NCBI RefSeq assembly: GCF_016107655.1
Contig: NZ_JABASX010000010.1
Location: 62,001 to 126,000 of the forward strand
Direction: 5' to 3'
DNA: 64,000 bases
Origin: Brevibacterium antiquum
Lineage (GTDB): Bacteria; Actinomycetota; Actinomycetes; Actinomycetales; Brevibacteriaceae
Shown: piece after piece, positions 1,974-15,078 of the stretch
Layout of the letters: each line of letters opens with the position of its first letter
Position numbering within the stretch: the first letter of the stretch is position 1
Made by a program: the position numbers and the translations under genes
Notes under the pieces: generated by a model
Seen by the model: the letters and a program-made list of their open reading frames with translations, nothing else
What the model was told of the DNA's origin: nothing
The model's database searches: none

Positions 1974-2567
1974 TCACCTGGTCCCACTGCCTCGGGCCAA
2001 TCTGGTAGTCAACCAGGTTTGGAAGCGGTGGGACAAAACGACTGGGTCAACGAGGAGCTTAGGAATATCGGAGGCATTGCCAGCCTCAATGCTCAGGTGC
2101 AGCAGCGTCGGTCCCGATGTTGCGATAAGGCGATCGAACTCGGAACGCAACCGCGCATCGTCTGCGGCTCGGCCGACCGTCCAGCCCGCCGCTTCGGCGA
2201 GCGCGCCGAAGTCGACGTGTGAGGAGTAGGTCGGCAGGCCGGCCGTCGATCCGTACACCTGGTTATCGAGGAGGATGAGGAACAGCTTTTCGGCCCCTAG
2301 GAATCCACCGGTGGGCAGCACGTTCGGGTTCATCAGCAAGGATCCGTCGCCTTCGAGACCGATGACTTTGGGCAGGTCGGAGTCCTTGGCCGCCAGGGCG
2401 AGGCCTGTGGTGATGGACCCGACGAGGCCCATCGAGTCGAGGACGTAGAAGTGGTTGTCCCGGTTCTCCACGGACGCCAGCTCACGGCTGGTCGCGGCAC
2501 AGGTCACGACGACGGGAAGTTCCGCGGTCAGTTCGTTGAGGACTTCGAGTGCTTCGATGCGCTTCAT
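1974..2567 (-). CDS. ThDP-dependent decarboxylase, beta subunit (sulfopyruvate/phosphonopyruvate decarboxylase-like)
   Basis: This 197-residue protein carries the diphosphate-binding half of a thiamine-diphosphate decarboxylase: GLEGDGSLLMN is the GDG...N cofactor and Mg motif, followed by LLDNQVYGSTAGLPT. Its length and its pairing with a separate N-terminal-half subunit match the ComE subunit of sulfopyruvate decarboxylase and the C-terminal half of phosphonopyruvate decarboxylases. The ATG lies one base after the stop of the alpha gene (2569-2571), so the two should be co-translated and form a heteromer. The substrate cannot be read from sequence: a sulfonate or phosphonate 2-oxoacid is the family expectation, and no obvious sulfonate pathway gene is adjacent. 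An in-frame start at 2612 would sit inside the alpha gene and is less likely. Confidence 0.8.
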   Translation of the reverse strand: MKRIEALEVLNELTAELPVVVTCAATSRELASVENRDNHFYVLDSMGLVGSITTGLALAAKDSDLPKVIGLEGDGSLLMNPNVLPTGGFLGAEKLFLILLDNQVYGSTAGLPTYSSHVDFGALAEAAGWTVGRAADDARLRSEFDRLIATSGPTLLHLSIEAGNASDIPKLLVDPVVLSHRFQTWLTTRLARGSGTR

Positions 2568-2568
2568 C

Positions 2569-3123
2569 TCAGGCCACCTTCCCATCGGTGTTCCAGAAGG
2601 AGCCGAGGACAACGACCGGACGGTAGGTCATACGGGCGTGAACACCCGCCTCGGCGACGGTCTGCTCCCAATCCTCGGACGACGAGCGCCGATCGAGCTC
2701 GAGCACCTGGAGTCCTACCGTGCGCAGAATCGTCGGCATGGGCTGGCTGATCGAGTGGATCATCGAGTTGTACTCCCCCGGGCCGCCGCGAGTGTTAGCG
2801 AAGATGAGCAGCGGCAGGTGATAGGACATTGAGAACGTCGTCAGTGCCGTGAGGCTGTTGCCGAAGCCGTTGTCCTGCATGACGACGGCCCCGAACTTCC
2901 CCGCCAGCGGCAGCGCACCGAGGACTCCGATCGCCTCCTCTTCACGGGAGAGCGGCTTCACTCGCTCTGAGATTCCGGCGGTCCCTCCGTCTGCGGTGAC
3001 CAGGTGGCCGATGACTGGGGCAATGGTGACGGAGGGAACGTAGCCGATGAGGTCGGCGCCGGCGCCCCAGATCCCATCGGCGACGGCCTGCGTATATGAC
3101 TTCGTTGTCACGGATTTCCTCAT
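2569..3123 (-). CDS. ThDP-dependent decarboxylase, alpha subunit (sulfopyruvate/phosphonopyruvate decarboxylase-like)
   Basis: The 184-residue product is the pyrimidine-binding half of the same enzyme: REEEAIGVLGALPLAGK carries the conserved glutamate that activates ThDP, followed by VVMQDNGFGNSLTALTTF, typical of ComD-like alpha subunits. Together with the downstream beta gene it would make one complete two-chain decarboxylase. The start ATG (3121-3123) overlaps the stop of a short glyoxalase relic as ATGA, so the decarboxylase genes once sat in a longer operon. A possible upstream partner, a PEP-mutase-like enzyme, is present only about 35 kb away at 38091-38939, so a linked phosphonate pathway is not shown. 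Confidence 0.8.
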   Translation of the reverse strand: MRKSVTTKSYTQAVADGIWGAGADLIGYVPSVTIAPVIGHLVTADGGTAGISERVKPLSREEEAIGVLGALPLAGKFGAVVMQDNGFGNSLTALTTFSMSYHLPLLIFANTRGGPGEYNSMIHSISQPMPTILRTVGLQVLELDRRSSSEDWEQTVAEAGVHARMTYRPVVVLGSFWNTDGKVA

Positions 3124-3191
3124 TCCCTGTCTTCGGGGACTCGGTGTTGGGTGATGTTGATGACGTTGCCGTCGGGGTCGCGGACCTTCAT
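3120..3191 (-). pseudogene. Relic of a glyoxalase/VOC-family gene (C-terminal end only)
   Basis: Read on the minus strand, 3191 to 3120 encodes MKVRDPDGNVINITQHR and a few more residues before a TGA. RDPDGNVINI is the standard closing beta-strand motif of vicinal-oxygen-chelate (glyoxalase/bleomycin resistance) proteins. The rest of a roughly 120-residue domain is missing: immediately upstream lies the macrodomain gene. The TGA overlaps the decarboxylase alpha ATG. The ATG within the relic probably corresponds to an internal methionine or was created by the truncation. Confidence 0.6.
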
Positions 3192-3201
3192 TGGATCTTC
3201 C

Positions 3202-3735
3202 TCACCATTGGTCGTGGTCGAATACCTGACAGAACACGCTCGTCATCGAGTCGCTGAAGAGGACGAAGACCACCTCGGCGATTGACTCCCAGCGCCCGCG
3301 TTCGCGGCCGTCGACGATGACGGCGTGGGCCGCCTCGGCGACGTCCCTGGCAGACCAGCCGTAGACTCCCCCGCCGATGGCCGGGAAGGCCACCGAGGTG
3401 GCGCCGAGGTCCTCGGCTGCGTTGAGGCTGGATTCGAAACAGGACTCAAGCACCTCGGGGTCGGCCTCGCCCTGATGGCGGTTGGGTCCGACGGTGTGGA
3501 TGACCCACTTGGCCTTGAGTGCGCCGGCGGTCGTGGCGACGGCCTGACCTGCGGGAAGTCCGCGCGGGTGGCTAGTTTGGCGTACCTCTCGGCAGGCCTC
3601 GAGCAGTTCGGGTCCGGCTGCCGTGTGGATGGCGCCGTCGACGCCGCCTCCGCCGAGCAGACTTGAGTTGGCGGCATTGACGATCGCGTCCACGGACGCC
3701 TCGGTGATGTCTCCCTCGAGTACCGTGATCTTCAT
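3202..3735 (-). CDS. Macrodomain protein (ADP-ribose/O-acetyl-ADP-ribose processing, YmdB-like)
   Basis: This 177-residue single-domain protein is a clear macrodomain: DITEASVDAIVNAANSS near the N-terminus, then the ligand loop LLGGGGVDGAIH, and VAFPAIGGGVYGW as the second phosphate-binding loop. The asparagine and aspartate expected for hydrolytic members are present. Family members bind ADP-ribose and often remove O-acetyl or mono-ADP-ribosyl groups from proteins or nucleic acids in the cytosol. It lies 13 bases from the Fic gene on the same strand, so they are probably co-transcribed; both act on adenine-nucleotide modifications. Function in this cell is inferred. Confidence 0.9.
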   Translation of the reverse strand: MKITVLEGDITEASVDAIVNAANSSLLGGGGVDGAIHTAAGPELLEACREVRQTSHPRGLPAGQAVATTAGALKAKWVIHTVGPNRHQGEADPEVLESCFESSLNAAEDLGATSVAFPAIGGGVYGWSARDVAEAAHAVIVDGRERGRWESIAEVVFVLFSDSMTSVFCQVFDHDQW

Positions 3736-3748
3736 GATTCAAGTCTAG

Positions 3749-4972
3749 TCATAGCCCTCCTCTTCGTGCGCCGTCCGCGAATGCGTCGAGAACGCTCAAT
3801 ACGCCGGGCTGCTGCCAGATGCGATTCCTTCTACGTCCGGTCGCCTCGTGCAGAATGCCACGATCGACCAATGTGTCGACCGCACGCATCGCCGTCATCT
3901 GATTGGTGCCGAGGGCAACGGCGACGAAACTGAGATTAACTGCTGGTTGCGCGATCAGCATGGGCAGCAAAGTCCATGCTGACGAGTCGCGCCTCACTCC
4001 TGCCAGCGCGTGCTCCATCTCATTCAGCACGGTGAGCAACTCGTCCATGAGCTGTCTGCCCGAATGGCTGGCGAAACGAGCGGCACGAGTGAACTGAGCA
4101 ATAATGGGTCCGGCATCACCTGAGCGGAATTCACCGAGGGCGGCGAAGTACGCTCCGATGTCGGTGAGCAACCCTGCCGAAATCGGTATTACCGAGGTGG
4201 TGACAAGGCCCTTCTCCTTGAGAATTGCGTGGATCAGAGCGCGACCAGTCCTGCCGTTCCCGTCGGCGAACGGGTGTATGGTCTCGAACTGCGCGTGTGC
4301 GATGGCGGCTTGAACTAACACGGGAAGATCCTCCCGCGCGATGAATGCGACGAGATCTTCTATCGCTGGAGGAACTCGGTGGTGCGCCGGCGGTACAAAA
4401 TCAGCGAGCAACGGCCCACTTCCTCCCGGTCCGATCCATACCTGCTGCTCGCGGAGTGCTCCGGCCTCGGAAGCCATCATTCGATCGCCCTCCAGCAGAG
4501 CCCGATGCATGTCGAGAATCGACTCGAGGGACATCTGACCCGACATCCCGATCGCGGTCTCCATGGCATGCACGTTGCCCAGAACTGTTGTGGCATTGGC
4601 CTTCACCGTCTCGTCTATGGACGCTAGCGCCAACTGCAGAGCCGATGTTGTCAGCTGTTCAATCTGTGAGCTTGATGCACTCTCGGTCCGCAGTAATATG
4701 GTCGGCATTGGACCGCCCATACGAGCGTTCGGGCCGAGTCTTCCGGATGCGAACCCGTCGACCCGAGCCAAAGCGCCGGTTGCATCGTCGACGTCAGCAT
4801 GTACTTCAGCCGGCAGACGCACCTCCCACTGCGCGATCTCTGGCACCAGGGCGGCACGATAGGTCCCCGTCTGGCGCTGAACCTCCCGACGGCTGAGCAT
4901 GTCCGGATTGACCGGTGACCAGTTCAGTTCTTCACTGCCCATCGACGGTATTGGTACCTTGAGATCCGTCAT
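3749..4972 (-). CDS. Fic-family AMP-transferase with C-terminal winged helix
   Basis: The 407-residue protein has the Fic signature HPFADGNGRTGR at about residues 233-244, with the catalytic histidine first, and an N-terminal Fic_N region. SSSQIEQL near residue 100 resembles the class II inhibitory helix (S/T-x-x-x-E-G/N), with Gln in place of Gly/Asn, so activity is probably self-restrained by the Glu. The last 80 or so residues (LSFVAVALGTNQMTAMRAVDTLVDRGIL, then GRRRNRIW) look like a winged-helix DNA-binding domain. A strong palindrome (5010-5028) upstream suggests autoregulation. Such enzymes transfer AMP from ATP to target proteins. No antitoxin-like small partner is visible; the inhibitory helix appears to be internal. 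Confidence 0.9.
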   Translation of the reverse strand: MTDLKVPIPSMGSEELNWSPVNPDMLSRREVQRQTGTYRAALVPEIAQWEVRLPAEVHADVDDATGALARVDGFASGRLGPNARMGGPMPTILLRTESASSSQIEQLTTSALQLALASIDETVKANATTVLGNVHAMETAIGMSGQMSLESILDMHRALLEGDRMMASEAGALREQQVWIGPGGSGPLLADFVPPAHHRVPPAIEDLVAFIAREDLPVLVQAAIAHAQFETIHPFADGNGRTGRALIHAILKEKGLVTTSVIPISAGLLTDIGAYFAALGEFRSGDAGPIIAQFTRAARFASHSGRQLMDELLTVLNEMEHALAGVRRDSSAWTLLPMLIAQPAVNLSFVAVALGTNQMTAMRAVDTLVDRGILHEATGRRRNRIWQQPGVLSVLDAFADGARRGGL

Positions 4973-5009
4973 GACGCGAACTCCTTATTAACACTTAAGC
5001 GTGTATCCG

Positions 5010-5028
5010 TTAGTTAGAGTCTAACTAA
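5010..5028 (-). promoter_or_regulatory. Palindrome upstream of the Fic gene, candidate operator
   Basis: TTAGTTAGA-G-TCTAACTAA is a perfect 9-base inverted repeat around one central base, 38 bases upstream of the Fic start and 97 bases upstream of the divergent amidotransferase start. The surrounding stretch is A/T-rich and likely holds the Fic promoter. The winged-helix tail of the Fic protein is the obvious candidate to bind it; this is inferred. Confidence 0.55.
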
Positions 5029-5125
5029 TTCACACTTCTCAGTCGAGAGATCCATCGGCGTAGGCTGACACGACACAGCCGCCTCGGCAAGGCAGACGGC
5101 CTTCTGCGGAAGGAAACGACGAACC

Positions 5126-6004
5126 ATGTGCAGACTTCTCGGCTACATCTCCCCCACTCCGGCGAGCGCAGCGGATCTCATCGGTGCCGAGGAATGTCGG
5201 CAGTGGCAGAACTTGGGCCGACTCCATGCCGATGGCTGGGGCACCGCGTGGATCCGACCGGAATCTGAATCAGCCGAATCGGCCCGTCCGCAGGGAACCA
5301 CCTCGGGCACCTTCGACACCGGCCCCGACGTGCAGGACACCGTGTCTCGGGGAGGACGTCTTGAAAGGTATCGCACCCCGCACGAGGGAGCAGACGACCC
5401 TCATCTCACGGAAGTCCTCACCGTCCGTCCGACGGTCGCGCGGATCACTCACTTGCGCATGGCCACGCACGGGGCTGTCGACCTCACCGAGAATTCGCAC
5501 CCTTTCCTCGCCGACAACATCGCTCTGGCGCACAACGGATCCATCCATCCGATAGAACGCCTACGCGAATACGTCACGACTGCCGAGGCCGAGCGCATCG
5601 GCGGATCCACAGACACCGCAATCCTGTTCGCCCTCATTTTGCGACGCGTGGGTCAGGGCGAAACTCTGTTCGACGCCACCATCGCGACCGTCCGGATGCT
5701 GCGGGCAGACTTCGACCATCCGGGGATCAATCTGCTCGTCCTCAATGCCGAGGAGATGATCGTCGTTCATGCGACTTCGGGAACACCGATTCCATATAAG
5801 AACTTCGACACTTCCGGCACCGGTGGTGAACTTCCGCTCGATCACAAGGACCACTACTACCGGATGAGCTGGCAGCGCTTCGACGACGGGGCGACGATCG
5901 TGTCGTCCTCGGGCCTTGATCATAAGGGCTGGAGTCTCGTTGAGCAGAACACGGCGATGCGGCTGACTGTGGCTGATGGGGCGGAGACTGTGGTGGCGCT
6001 CTAA
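5126..6004 (+). CDS. Class II glutamine amidotransferase (YafJ/EgtC-type)
   Basis: The protein begins MCRLLGYISP, so after removal of Met the N-terminal Cys2 is the glutaminase nucleophile typical of Ntn amidotransferases. GWGTAWI, ITHLRMATHGAV, NSHPFLADNIALAHNGSI and GSTDTAIL are the conserved substrate and oxyanion segments of the family. Length (292 residues) fits stand-alone YafJ/EgtC-like members, which release ammonia from glutamine or cleave gamma-glutamyl amides. No ergothioneine gene is next to it, so EgtC function is not supported by context. A strong ribosome site (GGAAGGA) precedes ATG 5126. Its stop overlaps the convergent surface-protein gene by a few bases. Confidence 0.85.
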   Translation: MCRLLGYISPTPASAADLIGAEECRQWQNLGRLHADGWGTAWIRPESESAESARPQGTTSGTFDTGPDVQDTVSRGGRLERYRTPHEGADDPHLTEVLTVRPTVARITHLRMATHGAVDLTENSHPFLADNIALAHNGSIHPIERLREYVTTAEAERIGGSTDTAILFALILRRVGQGETLFDATIATVRMLRADFDHPGINLLVLNAEEMIVVHATSGTPIPYKNFDTSGTGGELPLDHKDHYYRMSWQRFDDGATIVSSSGLDHKGWSLVEQNTAMRLTVADGAETVVAL

Positions 6005-6534
6005 GTCAGGTTGCGGCACTTTCCGCCGAAGAGAAGCCCAGCGTCGCTTGCGATGGATGCGGGTCCTGATCGCCATCCACTTGTGTGTTTGACGAAGAGA
6101 GAGACCTGTAGCTCGCCGAGACTACCCAGCAGACCTGTGAGTACACCAGCGGGGACTTTCGTGGTGTAGTTGCCTCCGCCAGTGGAAGTTGTGTTTAGGG
6201 AAAGGTTGTACCCGGTTAGCGGGGCCAGCACAGATCCAAGTCCACTGGTGGATGCTTCAATATCGACGTCTGTGAGTTGATAACCCGTTGGCAGATGCCA
6301 GTAGATCTCCACCCGGCCGCTTAGGAGAACCGGCACATATTTGCAATTGGCAGTCAATGTCGGTGCCGGGACGGTAGCGGCCCTGAACGAGCCCGCAGAC
6401 TGTTCGGTATCCGTCCACGCAGCCATCGTCGAACGCACACCGGACAGTCCGAGGACGAGTATGGCCAAAGCAATGCCGGCGATGAGGGCCTGGATCCGGC
6501 GGTTTCGGAGCCGCAATAGTCTGTGGCTGCTCAT
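6001..6534 (-). CDS. SipW-type secreted protein 3 of the surface operon
   Basis: This 177-residue protein starts with an Arg-rich stretch (HRLLRLRNRR), a hydrophobic helix, then STMAAWTDTEQSAGSF, the alternate SipW-type signal ending seen in its two operon neighbours. The mature part is about 135 residues, beta-rich by appearance, with two cysteines (NCKYV near the start and GGKCRN near the end) that could form a disulfide. ATG 6534 overlaps the stop of the signal peptidase fusion gene as ATGA, so it is translationally coupled. It lacks the TasA-like length of the other two and may be a minor subunit or anchor. Function is inferred from context only. Confidence 0.75.
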   Translation of the reverse strand: MSSHRLLRLRNRRIQALIAGIALAILVLGLSGVRSTMAAWTDTEQSAGSFRAATVPAPTLTANCKYVPVLLSGRVEIYWHLPTGYQLTDVDIEASTSGLGSVLAPLTGYNLSLNTTSTGGGNYTTKVPAGVLTGLLGSLGELQVSLFVKHTSGWRSGPASIASDAGLLFGGKCRNLT

Positions 6535-7937
6535 GAATTCCCCCGACTTCGTGTCTTGGCGACGACGGCGGAGCCCGTGGCGATGAGTCCGCCGGCGATC
6601 AGCAGAATCCACAGCCATCCTTCGATGCCGGTGCGTGGGAGGTCACCGGGAGAGTCGGGCGCATCTGGACCGGGCTCACCTGGGGCAGAGGGATTTCCTG
6701 GATCGCCTGGACCAGTCGAAATCTCTTCGCCTTGGCCGATTGCCGTCAAGCGCACTTCGCTTCGCTGCCCGGCGACTGCCTCTGCGTCAGCACCTTGAGC
6801 CAAGGTGACTGTCACCTGCACGCGACGCTTCTCATCACTGGGCATTTCAAGCAGACGGCGGCCGTTGTCGGGTGCCGCTCCCAGTTCGCTGAGCGGGATC
6901 CGGTGAATGAGTTCTGCTGCGCCGCCCGGACACTGATCCATCTCCACGATCTCCGCACACGAGCGCACGTCGACGAGGAGTTCGCCGGCTATCGCGTTCG
7001 TCAGCTGTCCGGAACCGATCTCCAACTCCACTGTTCCGGAATCCGGTGCGTCGGCCCAGACATCGACGGTCCAGTCCGCCGAGGCTCCCGGGCTCAGATT
7101 GAGCATCTTCGCCTCGTCGCCGACAGTCCGCATGCGCAGATACTGGCCGCGCACCTCGGCGGTGGTGCTGGTTGCGGTTCTTCCACCAGCCGTGGTTGAA
7201 GTATCGGAAGCATCAGTGCGGCCGGCTGCGGACATAATCGGCGATGAATCAGACGAGCCGAACGGACCGCCTCCGGCCACCAACAGCACAGCGGCAACAG
7301 GCAGAGCGATGGCATGCTTCGGTGAGCGAGTCATCGTTGATTGCGACGTGACGCGCGCCATCGACTCAGCAGTCGTACGCGAGTCCTCGGCCTCCTCGGC
7401 AAGGTCGTCTTCCTCGTCCTCCCGTCGCGGCCAGAAGGCCCAGACGACGAGCAGGGACGCTGCGATCGTGATGCCGCCAAGAGCATAGGGATTGCGCAGC
7501 TTCTGGATGGCCGGTGCGATCCCCGGGATCGAGAACATGACCTTGCGAACGGTATCCGCAGTGTACGGCTCGGGGTCCTTCGCTTCGTTGGCGTCGCCCT
7601 TCATCTCGAACGTGACGGTGCCGGACGTGGAATCCGTCTTCAGGATCGAGGTCACGCGGTGCGTCACGGGCAGGACCTTCTCGCCACGGTCGGCGGTGAC
7701 GATATCGCCGACCTTCATCTCCTGCGCAGGGATCTCGTGGACGAAGGCGATCGATCCGGCGGTGATCGTCGGGGTCATCGAGCCTGTTTTGAACATCATG
7801 ATCGAGATGTTGAAGACGAAGCTGAGGATGACGAGGACGATGCACACGACGCCCAATACAGCGAGGATGTTGAGCAGGGCCGCGCCCAGCCATGATGAGG
7901 GGTGCTTTCTAGGGGCGGCGTCGTGAGATCTTGTCAC
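6531..7937 (-). CDS. SipW-like signal peptidase fused to an LPxTG-anchored extracellular domain
   Basis: GTG 7937 overlaps the preceding stop (GTGA); the product has 468 residues. The N-terminal 170 or so are an ER/SipW-type signal peptidase: a first membrane helix, FKTGSMTPTI with the catalytic Ser, LPVTHRV with His replacing the bacterial Lys, and MKGDANEAKDP. A second helix (YALGGITIAASLLVVWAFW) and an acidic cytosolic linker follow. Then MTRSPKHAIALPVAAVLLV looks exactly like a former signal peptide, leading into an exported domain of about 190 residues, a proline/glycine-rich stretch and DLPRTG plus a helix and Arg-rich tail, a sortase sorting signal. No stop or ribosome site separates the halves, so it reads as a real gene fusion. 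It should mature the three SipW-type proteins of this operon. Confidence 0.85.
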   Translation of the reverse strand: MTRSHDAAPRKHPSSWLGAALLNILAVLGVVCIVLVILSFVFNISIMMFKTGSMTPTITAGSIAFVHEIPAQEMKVGDIVTADRGEKVLPVTHRVTSILKTDSTSGTVTFEMKGDANEAKDPEPYTADTVRKVMFSIPGIAPAIQKLRNPYALGGITIAASLLVVWAFWPRREDEEDDLAEEAEDSRTTAESMARVTSQSTMTRSPKHAIALPVAAVLLVAGGGPFGSSDSSPIMSAAGRTDASDTSTTAGGRTATSTTAEVRGQYLRMRTVGDEAKMLNLSPGASADWTVDVWADAPDSGTVELEIGSGQLTNAIAGELLVDVRSCAEIVEMDQCPGGAAELIHRIPLSELGAAPDNGRRLLEMPSDEKRRVQVTVTLAQGADAEAVAGQRSEVRLTAIGQGEEISTGPGDPGNPSAPGEPGPDAPDSPGDLPRTGIEGWLWILLIAGGLIATGSAVVAKTRSRGNS

Positions 7938-8653
7938 GACGGTGCCTTGTTCGTGGCAGTGAATGTCCAAGTATTCGACGCGCTCGTACCCTGGGCAACG
8001 CTCGGAGTGTCCGTCGGGAGGGTGACCTCGAAGCAGTAGGCTCGAACTGAGCTGCCGGTTTTGCCGACCAACTGCGAGCCTGCACCTTGGCGGTCTTTCT
8101 CTGACAGATTCGTCGTAGCTGAAGTGCCGCCGTAGACATAGTCCGCCGATGCGGTGAATGTCGAGGCACTGCACGTGAACCCACCTGTTGAATATGAGGT
8201 TGTCACTGCACGATAGACCAGTTTCCCGGCGATGCCGCTTGTGCCGCCTGTCCCTCCGCTCGACACTTTCAGCTCACCGTCAATAGTCGTGTCCGGCGCA
8301 GTGCGGATGAACACCGGGGCGTAGACCTTCGATCCGGGGTACATCCCGGTGGCGTTGAAGGTCATCGTCGATGTGTTGTTCCAGTTCGAGCCGTCGACCG
8401 ACAAATCGATGTTGAACGTGCCCGCTTCGAACGACCCGGTTGCTTCCTCGGTGTCGGTCCACGCCGCCAACGTCGCTGCCGCACCGATGCCGAAGACCAT
8501 TCCTCCGGCGAGGATCGCCTTGATCCGGCGGTTGTACAGTCGACGTCGGCTCTGCTCGCGCTCCCGTTTCCGGCGTCGACTCTCTGAGCGGGTCTCGTTC
8601 GAGACCCGCTCAGACGGGGTCGGATCGCCAGAGGCATCCGTCGGAAACTGCAC
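7934..8653 (-). CDS. SipW-type secreted protein 2 (TasA/CalY-like)
   Basis: The 239-residue product has a long basic N-terminus (SRRRKREREQSRRRLYNRR), a hydrophobic helix and LAAWTDTEEATGSFEAGTFN, the SipW-dependent signal with cleavage expected just before or at the AWTD segment. The mature region is rich in Ser, Thr, Gly and Asn and ends WTFTATNKAPS, closely echoing the first protein of the operon (WQFTATSAE). Two cysteines could pair. By analogy to TasA/CalY proteins of Bacillus it may form surface fibres; this is inferred. GTG 8653 is the only good start, 14 bases after the upstream stop, and its stop overlaps the signal peptidase start. Confidence 0.8.
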   Translation of the reverse strand: MQFPTDASGDPTPSERVSNETRSESRRRKREREQSRRRLYNRRIKAILAGGMVFGIGAAATLAAWTDTEEATGSFEAGTFNIDLSVDGSNWNNTSTMTFNATGMYPGSKVYAPVFIRTAPDTTIDGELKVSSGGTGGTSGIAGKLVYRAVTTSYSTGGFTCSASTFTASADYVYGGTSATTNLSEKDRQGAGSQLVGKTGSSVRAYCFEVTLPTDTPSVAQGTSASNTWTFTATNKAPS

Positions 8654-8667
8654 GAAGTCCGCTGGAG

Positions 8668-9273
8668 CTATTCAGCAGAGGTTGCGGTGAACTGCCACTG
8701 GGCGCTGGCAGCGTCACCCTCGGTCAGGTCGTCACCGGCAGTGACCTGGAAGCACAGAGTGACGGGAGCGCCTGCCGTGCTGCCTGCACCTGCGGTCAAA
8801 TCAAACCCTTGGGCGCCAGTGGTCGCGTCCAAGGCTGTACCGGCCGGAACGACTGTGGTGCCCGCTGCACCTTCGGTACACGATGCGGCATCGACGACCG
8901 CGACGATTCCGTAGCTCAGGTTCGCTTCGTTAGCACCGCTGCCTGCGGCGGCTTCGAGAACCACGCTCGCGTCGTACGAGGTTTCGCCGTCGAGCCTGAG
9001 AACGAACGGGGCCGCCACGGTGTCGCCGGGAGTGAGGTTGTCACCGCCGTCGAGGTCGAATGTCAGATTCGCCGCACCATCGGCACTGGTGTGATCGGTG
9101 AAGTCGGTTCCATTGGTGCTTCCCTGCACATTGAACGAACCGGCGCCGAAGGTCCCTTCGGCCCATTCGTTGTCCGTCCAGGCGGCCAGCGTCACCGCAG
9201 CTCCCACACCGAGAACGATGCCACCCGCGAGGATGGCCTTGAACTTGCGAGAACGCGTCTTGGACTGCGTCAT
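8668..9273 (-). CDS. SipW-type secreted protein 1 (TasA/CalY-like)
   Basis: First gene of the surface operon, 201 residues from ATG 9273, which has a clear AAGGAG ribosome site. Signal: TQSKTRSRKFKAILAGG, a helix and LAAWTDNEWAEGTFGAGSFN. The mature protein is acidic and Asp/Gly/Thr-rich (DLDGGDNLTPGDTVAAPFVLRLDG), with two cysteines and the ending AQWQFTATSAE. Sequence and length fit the SipW-dependent TasA-like group. It shares the AAWTD...GSF segment with the other two operon products, suggesting one dedicated peptidase for all. The A/T-rich stretch 9274-9400 presumably contains the promoter. Confidence 0.8.
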   Translation of the reverse strand: MTQSKTRSRKFKAILAGGIVLGVGAAVTLAAWTDNEWAEGTFGAGSFNVQGSTNGTDFTDHTSADGAANLTFDLDGGDNLTPGDTVAAPFVLRLDGETSYDASVVLEAAAGSGANEANLSYGIVAVVDAASCTEGAAGTTVVPAGTALDATTGAQGFDLTAGAGSTAGAPVTLCFQVTAGDDLTEGDAASAQWQFTATSAE

Positions 9274-9425
9274 TCTGACTCCTTGGAAAAGCACACTTAT
9301 GCACACAACACCAGATTTGGTGACTTCATCATTATCACACAATTACTTGTTTAAGAATACTATTTATTACAGACGTGTTTTCCGGCACAGAAATGGAAGA
9401 TCACGGAAGCTTGGCTCAAATAGTC

Positions 9426-11044: not shown

Positions 11045-12229
11045 GTGCCAGAATTTCAGACCGACGTCGCCATCGTCGGAGCCGGTCCGGCCGGGCTGCT
11101 GCTCGCCCACACGCTGCACAATGCAGGGATCGACTCAGTCGTCGTTGACAACCGCAGCCGCGACGACATCGCCCACACCCACCGGGCAGGCATCCTCGAG
11201 GCCGGGTCGGTGCGCATGCTCGAGGCCGAGGGCATCGAATCACGCGTACATACAGAGGGCCACCGTCACGACGGCATCGACATCCGCGTCGACGGCGTCA
11301 GCCACTCCTTCGACTTCCCGAGCCTCATCGGCGAATCCGTCTGGCTCTACCCGCAGAACGAGATCTTCGTCGACCTCTCCGCCGCCCGCGGACGCACCGG
11401 ACGCCCCACCTTCTACTCGGTCACCGACACCGCGATCGGCGATATCGAGACCGAACAGCCGTGGGTGAGTGCGACGACCGAGGACGGCGAGGAACTGACG
11501 ATCAATGCCCGCTACGTCATCGGCTCCGACGGCTCCCGCGGGCCCTGCCGGGCGATGATCCCAGCAGACACGAAGCAGCGCTTCTTCCACGAATACCCCT
11601 TCGCCTGGTTCGGGATCCTCTGCGAGGCACCGGCCAGCCACGAGGTCCTCATCTACTCCCGCTCCGAACGCGGCTTCGCCCTGATCTCCCAGCGCAGCGA
11701 GTCCGTGCAGCGCATGTACTTCCAAACCTCCCCCGACACCGATGTCGCCGACTGGTCCGATGACCGCATCTGGTCGGAGCTGCAGTCCCGAGTCGACGGA
11801 CCCGACGGCTTCCAGCTCAAAACGGGTGCGATCATCGACAAGAACATCCTGCCCTTCCGCTCGGCCGTGACCGAGCCGATGCAGCATGGTTCCCTGTTCC
11901 TCGCCGGCGACAGCGCCCACACCGTTCCACCCACCGGAGCCAAGGGCCTCAACCTGGCCTTCGCCGACGTGTCCGTGCTTGCCCCGGCGCTGATCTCAGC
12001 CCTGAAGACCTCCGACGCCGAGGCGCTGGCCGGGTATTCGCAGACCGCGACGAAACGTGTGTGGAAGGCTCAGAACTTCTCCTACCAGATGACCCGGATG
12101 CTCCACTCCGACCCCAGCCAGGATGCGTTCGAAACGAAGCGCAGCCTCGGCGAGCTCAATTCGATCCTCGAATCCGAGCACGGCCGGCGCTACCTCGCCG
12201 AGTGCTACACAGGTTGGCCCAAGGGCTGA
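11045..12229 (+). CDS. pobA: 4-hydroxybenzoate 3-monooxygenase
   Basis: The 394-residue flavoprotein hydroxylates 4-hydroxybenzoate to protocatechuate using FAD, NAD(P)H and O2. The N-terminal FAD motif is VAIVGAGPAGLLLAH (residues about 8-22), the middle has VIGSDGSRGPCR (DG motif), and FLAGDSAHTVPPTGAKG near residue 288 is the second FAD-binding GD motif. Length matches the PobA family (about 390). GTG 11045 has a strong AAGGAGG site. It opens a co-directional run pobA-pcaH-pcaG-pcaB-pcaL, which consumes its product. Confidence 0.93.
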   Translation: MPEFQTDVAIVGAGPAGLLLAHTLHNAGIDSVVVDNRSRDDIAHTHRAGILEAGSVRMLEAEGIESRVHTEGHRHDGIDIRVDGVSHSFDFPSLIGESVWLYPQNEIFVDLSAARGRTGRPTFYSVTDTAIGDIETEQPWVSATTEDGEELTINARYVIGSDGSRGPCRAMIPADTKQRFFHEYPFAWFGILCEAPASHEVLIYSRSERGFALISQRSESVQRMYFQTSPDTDVADWSDDRIWSELQSRVDGPDGFQLKTGAIIDKNILPFRSAVTEPMQHGSLFLAGDSAHTVPPTGAKGLNLAFADVSVLAPALISALKTSDAEALAGYSQTATKRVWKAQNFSYQMTRMLHSDPSQDAFETKRSLGELNSILESEHGRRYLAECYTGWPKG

Positions 12230-12275
12230 GCAGCTCAGCACAGACAATCCTCCACACCGAGAAGAAAGGTTCGAC

Positions 12276-13076
12276 ATGGGAGCACAGAAACCCTCCGGCC
12301 CGGACGACGCGGCCGAGTCACAGCAGACGCTGTCTGCCGAGATCGAAGCCATCGAGACCGAGCATAAGAACGCAGTCGCCGCCGGCACACCGGCCGAGAC
12401 ACAGCCGCGCCTGGACTACCCGCCGTACCGGTCCTCGATTCTCCGACACCCGACAAAGGACCCTCGGCACACGGATCCGGAGACCATCGAGCTCTTCTCT
12501 CCCGCATTCGGCCACCGCGACCTGGCGAATCTCGAATCGGACCTCACCATCCAGGCCGGCGGGGAACCGATCGGCGAACGCATCAAGGTCACCGGCCGCG
12601 TCCTCGACGGCAACGGCCGCCCCGTCCGAAACCAGCTCGTTGAGATCTGGCAGGCCAACTCCGCCGGACGCTACATCCACAAGCGCGACCAGCACCCAGC
12701 CCCGATCGACCCGAACTTCACCGGCGTCGGCCGCACCCTGACCGGTGACGACGGCTCCTACTCGTTCACGACGATCAAGCCAGGACCGTACCCGTGGAAG
12801 AACCACCACAATGCGTGGCGGCCGGCCCACATCCACTTCTCACTCTTCGGCTCCGAGTTCACCCAGCGCATGATCACTCAGATGTACTTCCCCAGCGATC
12901 CGCTGTTCGCACTCGACCCGATCTACCAGTCGATCACCGACAAGAAGGCCCGCGACCGCCTCGTCGCCACCTACGATCACACCATCACCGAGCACGAATT
13001 CCTCATGGGCTACAACTGGGACATCGTGCTCACCGGAGGCAACCGCACCTGGATGGAAGAAGAGGACGATGACTGA
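12276..13076 (+). CDS. pcaH: Protocatechuate 3,4-dioxygenase, beta chain
   Basis: The 266-residue chain carries the non-heme Fe(III) centre of the intradiol dioxygenase that opens protocatechuate to 3-carboxy-cis,cis-muconate. Intradiol core: VRNQLVEIWQANSAGRY, GPYPWKNHHNAW and WRPAHIHFSL, with the tyrosine and HxH ligands expected for PcaH. About 50 N-terminal residues look variable. ATG 12276 follows AGAAAGG; a longer in-frame start inside pobA is unlikely. Its stop overlaps the pcaG start by 8 bases. Confidence 0.93.
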   Translation: MGAQKPSGPDDAAESQQTLSAEIEAIETEHKNAVAAGTPAETQPRLDYPPYRSSILRHPTKDPRHTDPETIELFSPAFGHRDLANLESDLTIQAGGEPIGERIKVTGRVLDGNGRPVRNQLVEIWQANSAGRYIHKRDQHPAPIDPNFTGVGRTLTGDDGSYSFTTIKPGPYPWKNHHNAWRPAHIHFSLFGSEFTQRMITQMYFPSDPLFALDPIYQSITDKKARDRLVATYDHTITEHEFLMGYNWDIVLTGGNRTWMEEEDDD

Positions 13077-13641
13077 CCAGAAGCTCACTGCAACACCCGG
13101 CCAGACAGTCGGCCCGTTCTACGGCTACGCCATGCCGTGGCCCGGCGACAATGAACTCGTTCCCCCGGCCAAAGCCGGAGCAGTCCAGCTCCACGGCTAT
13201 GTCTACGACGGGGCCGGCGCTCCCGTTCCCGATGCGATCCTCGAGATCTGGCAGCCCGATGAGGACGGCAACGTCTCCCGCAATTCGGGATCGCTGCGCC
13301 GTGACGGATTCACCTTCACCGGTTTCGGCCGCAACGAGGTCGACCCGGAAGGCCGCTACGTCTTCTCCACCCTCAACCCAGGGGCGACTGAGGCAGGCAA
13401 GGCACCGTTCATCAGCGTCGTCATCTTCGCCCGCGGACTGTTGAACAGGCTGTTCACCAGGATCTATCTCCCTGAGGACACCGAGGCTCTGGCGGCCGAC
13501 CCGCTGCTGTCCTCCCTCGATGCGACCGAGCGGGATCGCCTCATCGCGACTCGCGGGGCTGACGGATCGCTGCGTTTCGACATACGGTTGCAGGGTGAGA
13601 ACGAGACCCCGTTCCTGCGGTTCCCCAGTCACGAAGACTGA
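13069..13641 (+). CDS. pcaG: Protocatechuate 3,4-dioxygenase, alpha chain
   Basis: This 190-residue subunit has the intradiol fold (LHGYVYDGAGAPVPDAILEIWQ) but lacks the full set of iron ligands, as usual for PcaG, which pairs with PcaH to form the active site. TPGQTVGPFYGYAMPW is the typical alpha-chain start. ATG 13069 overlaps the end of pcaH, giving coupled translation and equal amounts of both chains. Confidence 0.93.
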   Translation: MTDQKLTATPGQTVGPFYGYAMPWPGDNELVPPAKAGAVQLHGYVYDGAGAPVPDAILEIWQPDEDGNVSRNSGSLRRDGFTFTGFGRNEVDPEGRYVFSTLNPGATEAGKAPFISVVIFARGLLNRLFTRIYLPEDTEALAADPLLSSLDATERDRLIATRGADGSLRFDIRLQGENETPFLRFPSHED

Positions 13642-13692
13642 CAGGACTCACAAACACCGAGTCACCGCTGCCGCCACTGGAGAGGACACACA

Positions 13693-15078
13693 ATGACTGA
13701 CACCGTTGCCCATACGCGCCTCCTGTTCGCCCCGGGCGACCTGCGAGGCGCCGAGGCCATCGACGATGTCGCCCTCGTGTCTGCACTCGGCGATGTGGAG
13801 TCGGCGTGGATCAACGCTCAGGCGCATGCCGGGTTGATCTCCTCCGATGCCCGCGCCGAGGCGGTGGCGGGCATCGAAGCCACCACCCGGTCGCTGCTCT
13901 CCGACTCCGCCGAACTCGAGATGCTGGCCGCTGGCGCCGAATCCGGTGGCAACCCGGTCATTCCGTTCCTCAAGGCCGTGCGCTCACGACTCGGTCCGGA
14001 TGCGTCCCGCGCCTTGCACAAGGGCCTGACCAGCCAGGACGTCATGGATTCGGCGCTAGGACTGCTCATGGCCCGAGTTGCCCGCCAGACTCATGCACGC
14101 CTCGACGTCATCGCCGATGTGCTCGTCGGGCTCTCCGAGGATCATGCCTCGACCGTGTGCTTGGCTCGCACCCTGACCCAACCGGCACTGCCGACGACCT
14201 TCGGGCTCAAGATCGCCTCCTGGGCCGCCGAAGTCCACGAGGTCCAGAGCCTGACCCCGCGCATCGACTACGTGCAGGTCGGAGGAGCCGCGGGCACCCG
14301 AGCCGCGATCCGCGAGTTCGCGGGAACCCAGACCGAGGCGCTGCTGCGCGAATTCCATGTGCAGCTGCGCGGACCCGACGCCGCGCTCACCAGCATTCCC
14401 GCGCCCTGGCACACCGACCGCGTCCGGGTCCTCAACTGGGCCTCTCACCTCACCCAATGTGTGACGGTCGGGGCCTCAATCGCCCGAGACGTGCTCATCG
14501 GCACCCGCCCCGAGGTCGGCGAACTGAGCCTGGCCGCGACCGGCGAGTCCTCGGCGATGCCGCAGAAGGTCAATCCCACCTCGGCGGTCCTCCTTCACCG
14601 CAACGGCATGCGCGCCCCCGGGCTCATGGCCACACTGACCTCGACCGCGGCCGAGGCGATCGAGGAGCGCTCCGACGGAGCCTGGCACGCCGAATGGCCT
14701 GCCCTGTCCGAGCTCATGGGCCTGGCCGTGTCCTCCCTCATCATGCTCCAGACGATGGTCGAAGGACTGAGCGTCAAGCCTGATGCAATGCGGAAGAACG
14801 TGGACGCCGCCAGCCCAGGCATCTATGCCGAACGCCTCAACATCGCCTTCGGCGACCGGCTGACGAAGACTCAGGTTCAGGACATCATCGCCCCTGGTGG
14901 TGACCCTGTGGCCGCGCTCAAAGCAGCCCTGGGCCAGGCCGAGGACGATCTGGAGAGCTTCTTCACTCCGGAGAACTACCTCGGCGACGCCGAAGATATC
15001 CGACAGACCATCATTGCCACCATCAACGGACCCGAGCCCGTATCGCCGGGCCTCCTCCCCTTCGCCTCAAGAAAGTGA
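13693..15078 (+). CDS. pcaB: 3-carboxy-cis,cis-muconate cycloisomerase
   Basis: A 461-residue member of the fumarase/aspartase superfamily with the signature GESSAMPQKVNP around residue 284. It converts 3-carboxymuconate to 4-carboxymuconolactone in the cytosol, the step between PcaHG and PcaL. TSQDVMDSALGLL and GGAAGTRAAI are other conserved superfamily blocks. ATG 13693 follows GAGAGGACAC; the gene lies 51 bases after pcaG and 6 bases before pcaL. Confidence 0.93.
   Translation: MTDTVAHTRLLFAPGDLRGAEAIDDVALVSALGDVESAWINAQAHAGLISSDARAEAVAGIEATTRSLLSDSAELEMLAAGAESGGNPVIPFLKAVRSRLGPDASRALHKGLTSQDVMDSALGLLMARVARQTHARLDVIADVLVGLSEDHASTVCLARTLTQPALPTTFGLKIASWAAEVHEVQSLTPRIDYVQVGGAAGTRAAIREFAGTQTEALLREFHVQLRGPDAALTSIPAPWHTDRVRVLNWASHLTQCVTVGASIARDVLIGTRPEVGELSLAATGESSAMPQKVNPTSAVLLHRNGMRAPGLMATLTSTAAEAIEERSDGAWHAEWPALSELMGLAVSSLIMLQTMVEGLSVKPDAMRKNVDAASPGIYAERLNIAFGDRLTKTQVQDIIAPGGDPVAALKAALGQAEDDLESFFTPENYLGDAEDIRQTIIATINGPEPVSPGLLPFASRK

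Follow-up and report, generated by a model that had tools for sequence, protein, structure and literature searches.

Background

In Bacillus the signal peptidase SipW processes TasA and TapA; TasA forms fibres by donor-strand exchange, and TapA acts as their starter or anchor (PMC9674648, PMC10151520). The tapA and sipW genes of Bacillus subtilis overlap stop to start (PMC10151520). In the sipW-bsaABC operon of Clostridium perfringens, SipW is reported to be needed for a TasA-like matrix protein to be exported and to polymerise; a sortase encoded nearby was not needed, and no LPXTG was predicted in BsaA (PMC7395162). The reported preference of class E sortases is for LAXTG (PMC5148588).

The window analysed here is the whole stretch of 64,000 nt from Brevibacterium antiquum. 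Brevibacterium is a cheese-and-soil bacterium. To our knowledge, both the way in which TasA-like fibres are attached to the cell and the reason for the presence of a peptidase in the operon are poorly known outside Bacillus.

The fused gene and its operon

The window has a fused reading frame on the minus strand that starts with GTG at position 7937 and terminates with TGA at position 6531 (Table 1). There is no stop codon between the two halves. The preliminary description of this DNA had read it as a single uninterrupted frame leading from a SipW peptidase into an exported domain, and this is borne out. On the minus strand the operon runs from TasA-like protein 1 and TasA-like protein 2 through the fusion to a third protein with a SipW-type signal. 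At 7937 a GTGA holds both the start of the fusion and the overlapping stop of TasA-like protein 2; at 6534 an ATGA holds the ATG of the third substrate and the overlapping stop of the fusion. TasA-like proteins 1 and 2 are homologous. Three proteins score above the TIGR04088 cutoff, all in this operon, and no others were found in the genome; the peptidase is indeed encoded next to its own substrates, as had been proposed.

Table 1. Positions in the window of the fused gene, its segments and the adjoining operon genes
Feature	Positions	Strand	Residues	Basis or remark
TasA-like protein 1, SipW-dependent signal	8668-9342	-		TIGR04088, 37.8 bits; probable start at internal ATG near 9273
TasA-like protein 2, SipW-dependent signal	7934-8653	-		TIGR04088, 36.9 bits
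Fused ORF: SipW-type signal peptidase, surface domain and LPRTG sorting signal	6531-7937	-	468 aa	
SipW domain, two membrane helices	7428-7889	-	17-170	TIGR02228, SEC11 match, invariant residues
Ser53 codon	7779-7781	-	53	
His93 codon	7659-7661	-	93	
Linker, acidic, fast-evolving, probably cytoplasmic	7335-7427	-	171-201	
Third hydrophobic segment with preceding positive RSPKHA	7272-7334	-	202-222	
Variable spacer	7173-7271	-	223-255	Signal peptidase cut site of other genera not recognisable here
Exported beta-sandwich domain, two conserved Cys	6708-7172	-	256-410	AlphaFold2
Cell-wall sorting signal: LPRTG (6627-6641), helix, basic tail (RSRG)	6534-6641	-		Sequence, TIGR01167
Third SipW-signal protein	6001-6534	-		TIGR04088, 23.4 bits

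In a search of the genus, 24 of 57 Brevibacterium species have the full, uninterrupted fusion. In the remaining species the domain is absent or SipW is present alone, and no split sipW/anchor pair is seen among the 57. The preliminary description had suggested looking for the same fusion in other Brevibacterium genomes, and had held that two separate genes in related strains would speak against it; no split pair was seen within the genus, and it is in other genera that such pairs are frequent. Purifying selection acts on each of the two halves (pN/pS about 0.1-0.22). The linker and spacer are fast-evolving yet remain in frame. The fusion is a confirmed observation.

The third substrate, which has homologues in loci L029, L030 and L033, occurs in two dissimilar sequence types that occupy the same place in the operon. 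The two types are found in different Brevibacterium species, which suggests an allele-like replacement. The genes flanking the operon were read by eye. A class II glutamine amidotransferase-like gene is convergent to the operon (5126-6004, plus strand). One flank (1974-4972) has decarboxylase-type subunits, a macro-domain protein and a Fic protein, and the other (11045-15078) has aromatic-ring degradation genes; both are ordinary-looking.

The peptidase half and the surface domain

The SipW domain matches TIGR02228 with 67.3 bits against a cutoff of 51.85, and the nearest solved structures in the PDB are SEC11A/C. Ser53 and His93 are invariant among 12 Brevibacterium proteins. These results agree with the earlier identification of a SipW-type peptidase with a Ser/His dyad. 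The score to NF046067, the Bacillus SipW equivalog, is 49.9 bits and is below its cutoff of 190. By these profile scores the SipW of the window is related but lies outside the Bacillus orthologue group. The linker that follows has a mean pairwise identity of 0.34 and a pN/pS of 0.6-0.9.

The surface domain (about 155 residues), when modelled alone with AlphaFold2, has a pLDDT of 91.9. It has no match to a Pfam or NCBIfam family. The best matches in a fold search are Ig domains of the MSCRAMM type (adhesin), with TM-scores of 0.51 or less, which are too weak for an assignment. A relationship to TasA or camelysin was also considered and rejected: hhalign comparisons with the TasA-like proteins of the operon give probabilities of 0.1-9% (12 or 32 sequences), TasA is absent among the 50 best PDB fold matches and from the hits of PDB sequence searches, and the domain does not carry an AAWTD-type (SipW-type) signal. 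An identity with TapA was rejected by sequence, as no TapA chain was found in PDB sequence searches; TapA did not appear in the PDB fold search either. The full-length AlphaFold model is poor outside the domain (pLDDT 60.9), and the membrane topology discussed below was for this reason derived from the sequence.

The LPRTG, helix and basic tail reported earlier at the C-terminus are evident in the sequence. TIGR01167 gives 18.2 bits in the genome search, above the cutoff of 15.9, and 13.0 bits, below the cutoff, by hmmscan of the whole protein. One sortase was found in the genome, of class E (250 bits), together with 13 LPXTG-type tails. The sorting motifs of the fusions are LPRTG or LPWTG in Brevibacterium and LAxTG or LPxTG in other genera. 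It is likely from these features that the domain is anchored to the wall by sortase.

The joining segment and its cut site

The third hydrophobic segment sits where the split proteins have their Sec signal peptide. Conservation is higher in this segment and its RSPKHA flank than in the linker and the spacer. Split anchor proteins start with a classic Sec signal peptide, e.g., one with PAWAAPTTEV. In most fusions from outside Brevibacterium the internal segment resembles the signal peptide of the split proteins, with a charged n-region, a hydrophobic core and an AxA immediately ahead of the domain. In the Brevibacterium fusions, including that of the window, the n-region and core are present and the cut site is at chance.

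Strict counting of AxA separates the groups poorly (0.88 vs 0.73 in shuffles) because the regions are rich in Ala, and a leave-one-out cut-site matrix was therefore used and compared with shuffles. The median score is 9.1 for split proteins, 7.7 for non-Brevibacterium fusions and 3.1 for Brevibacterium fusions, from a matrix that leans towards the first two groups, whose AxA-selected sites were its training set. The share of proteins that score better than 95% of their shuffles is 78% (split), 71% (other fusions) and 11% (Brevibacterium, 2 of 19, where the 19 fusions are one clade and non-independent). The score of the window is 0.2, which is at chance. The Brevibacterium spacer is longer than that of other groups, and residual weak sites (AQA-SDT, SFA-ED and SAA-G) are found in several Brevibacterium species.

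In most genera the joining segment is apparently an intact, cleavable Sec signal peptide that would free the anchor domain from the peptidase. As the internal segment there resembles a cleavable Sec signal peptide, cleavage after export is to be expected for the usual fusion. The Brevibacterium site seems to have decayed. The preliminary description had taken this segment for a former signal peptide and the peptidase for an enzyme covalently tied to the wall. Both ideas may hold in Brevibacterium, where the site is at chance and so few fusions exceed their shuffles; neither is the best general reading, as most other genera keep an intact AxA site.

Fused and split forms in other genera

The same fusion is present in at least 12 actinobacterial genera besides Brevibacterium, beside TasA-like SipW substrates. 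The survey consisted of a domain search in the order and the class plus a scan of named genomes. Fused genes are found in Brevibacterium, Brachybacterium, Enteractinococcus, Leucobacter, Plantibacter, Agromyces, Micromonospora, Nakamurella, Paeniglutamicibacter, Cryobacterium and Glaciihabitans, and in some Leifsonia, Arthrobacter and Microbacterium. Most of the Microbacterium found, as well as Agrococcus, Humibacter and some Arthrobacter, have split genes. Genomes with fused and with split genes share a common gene set of TasA-like genes, sipW, the anchor gene and the third substrate. Among genomes with sipW and TasA-like genes, the anchor gene was not found in G016 and Dietzia.

In nearly every split genome the stop of sipW and the start of the anchor gene overlap as ATGA or GTGA, so a single frameshift would interconvert the fused and split forms. 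A tree of the SipW domain with 115 rows has about 8 changes between them; its support is modest, and the supported branches force only a few of these changes.

Additional SipW genes are present in some genomes. A Glaciihabitans MAG (L171) has two fused SipW-anchor genes, near positions 740 and 3818, with several TasA-like genes at one locus. A second SipW gene is found at 2764-4791 of locus L040 (genome G012) and on contig 1 of G135 near position 1513921. The second gene of G012 adjoins two further TasA-like genes and is without an anchor domain.

Fusion extends to the substrates in two loci. [Zimmermannella] faecalis ATCC 13722 (L139) has a triple fusion of SipW, signal peptide, domain and substrate in one ORF at positions 3947-5734. 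Its LPATG-helix-RRRR signal is complete and is followed by a substrate of the third type with an intact AAWTD signal, and the locus contains no N. In Leifsonia sp. ALI-44-B (L194, 3362-4972) SipW is joined directly to a putative substrate and an LAAWTD is kept between them. An apparent second triple fusion (L138) has N at the join and was left out of the count. In L139 and L194 each join retains its own cut signal, which would be expected if signal peptidase and sortase separate the fused operon products.

Interpretation

The best explanation of the locus, which we regard as reasonably probable, is a translational fusion of neighbouring genes of a tasA-sipW-type operon, whose products are usually cut apart and whose surface domain is a wall-anchored base or assembly factor of a TasA-like fibre. 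The sipW gene, whose product would process the TasA-like proteins of the operon, would be translated as one chain with its neighbour, which encodes a surface protein anchored by sortase. This chain would cross the membrane with four segments, i.e., the two helices of SipW, an internal signal sequence that restarts export, and the sorting signal. Both ends are placed inside because the charge pattern fits such a topology. SipW would cut the TasA-like proteins, and sortase E would cut LPRTG and join the domain to peptidoglycan. In most genera a signal peptidase would also cut after the internal signal sequence. This would leave the peptidase in the membrane and the anchor at the wall as separate proteins, produced 1:1 and at the same spot.

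The anchored domain would most likely have a TapA-like role, in which it would anchor the fibre of SipW-processed proteins to the wall or act in its assembly. Its gene linkage, i.e., the repeated fusion to SipW beside the substrates, makes it the leading candidate for the anchor or assembly factor that is missing. The preliminary description had offered a role as substrate guide or as fibre anchor for the C-terminal domain; the latter is the better fit to the conserved operon. Against this explanation, the domain has no convincing homology to TasA-like proteins, and the reported LAXTG preference of class E sortases differs from the LPRTG and LPWTG of Brevibacterium. The unrecognisable cut site of Brevibacterium and the genomes with sipW and TasA-like genes in which the anchor gene was not found (G016, Dietzia) also count against it.

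An assembly or frameshift error that joined two genes would need a single indel, as the overlap by ATGA in the split pairs of other genera illustrates. Such an error has a negligible probability and can be excluded, because the same uninterrupted fusion is present in 24 Brevibacterium species and many genera; these independent genomes refute it, and the purifying selection on either side of the join also counts against it. A second alternative is that the locus has two products, with SipW translated from the GTG and the surface protein chiefly from an in-frame start ahead of the third segment. The window does have in-frame ATGs just upstream of this segment (SMARV and STMTRSPKHA), and the anchor protein of split relatives begins at exactly the same place. 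However, the sequences of 12 Brevibacterium species, read by eye, show neither a conserved start codon nor a conserved Shine-Dalgarno sequence at the junction, and a stop after SipW is present in 0 of 24 fused species, which makes the arrangement improbable.

A lasting tether in Brevibacterium deserves more weight and is a tentative possibility. The internal signal would stay uncut and an active peptidase would remain joined to the wall-anchored domain, with the processing of fibre proteins fixed at the points of wall anchoring. The chance-level scores of the 19 Brevibacterium fusions, the longer spacer, the better conservation of the third segment and RSPKHA, and the retention of the fusion in the genus with no split seen are all consistent with this. 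The weak sites that persist in several species argue against it, as do the single-clade origin of the 19 sequences and the clear retention of the cut site in other genera. In addition, in a protein fixed in both membrane and wall the short spacer and the domain would have to bridge the gap. With a decayed junction, the active peptidase might perhaps be held permanently in membrane and wall and mark fixed sites of subunit cutting, assembly and anchoring, and elsewhere the fusion might be a self-contained polyprotein of the membrane that signal peptidase and sortase cut into its parts.

The repeated joining to SipW is of significance as a Rosetta-stone link: it singles out a candidate anchor of the fibres across Micrococcales and Micromonosporaceae and draws attention to a domain family that Pfam lacks. 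The fused, split and triple-fused natural variants are material for testing processing and anchoring, and the apparently decayed cut site of Brevibacterium makes a long-term link between enzyme and wall testable.

Comparison with known systems

No description of this SipW-anchor fusion was found in a literature search that had most subscription papers outside its reach. SipA of Streptococcus pyogenes is presumably a signal peptidase of a different type. As far as the accessible part of its source goes, SipA is similar to the present case in that a pilus locus has a signal peptidase-like protein of its own, but it is encoded by a separate gene (PMC4049620). The corresponding part of the C. perfringens sipW-bsaABC paper reports no SipW fusion (PMC7395162). 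The sorting signal resembles that of class E sortase substrates of actinobacteria in its C-terminal pentapeptide, helix and basic tail, with class E as the only sortase of the genome; it differs in having LPRTG rather than LAXTG in Brevibacterium, and the substrate here is fused to a signal peptidase (PMC5148588). As in tapA-sipW-tasA of B. subtilis, a SipW-type peptidase is encoded with its fibre substrates and a candidate anchor or assembly factor (PMC9674648, PMC10151520). Unlike that system, the candidate anchor has a sortase signal, and its signal peptide is an ordinary Sec one instead of the SipW type; unlike TapA, to which it has no detectable similarity, it is fused to SipW in many genera. 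What is new is a tasA-sipW-type operon with the peptidase and a sortase-anchored protein in one chain.
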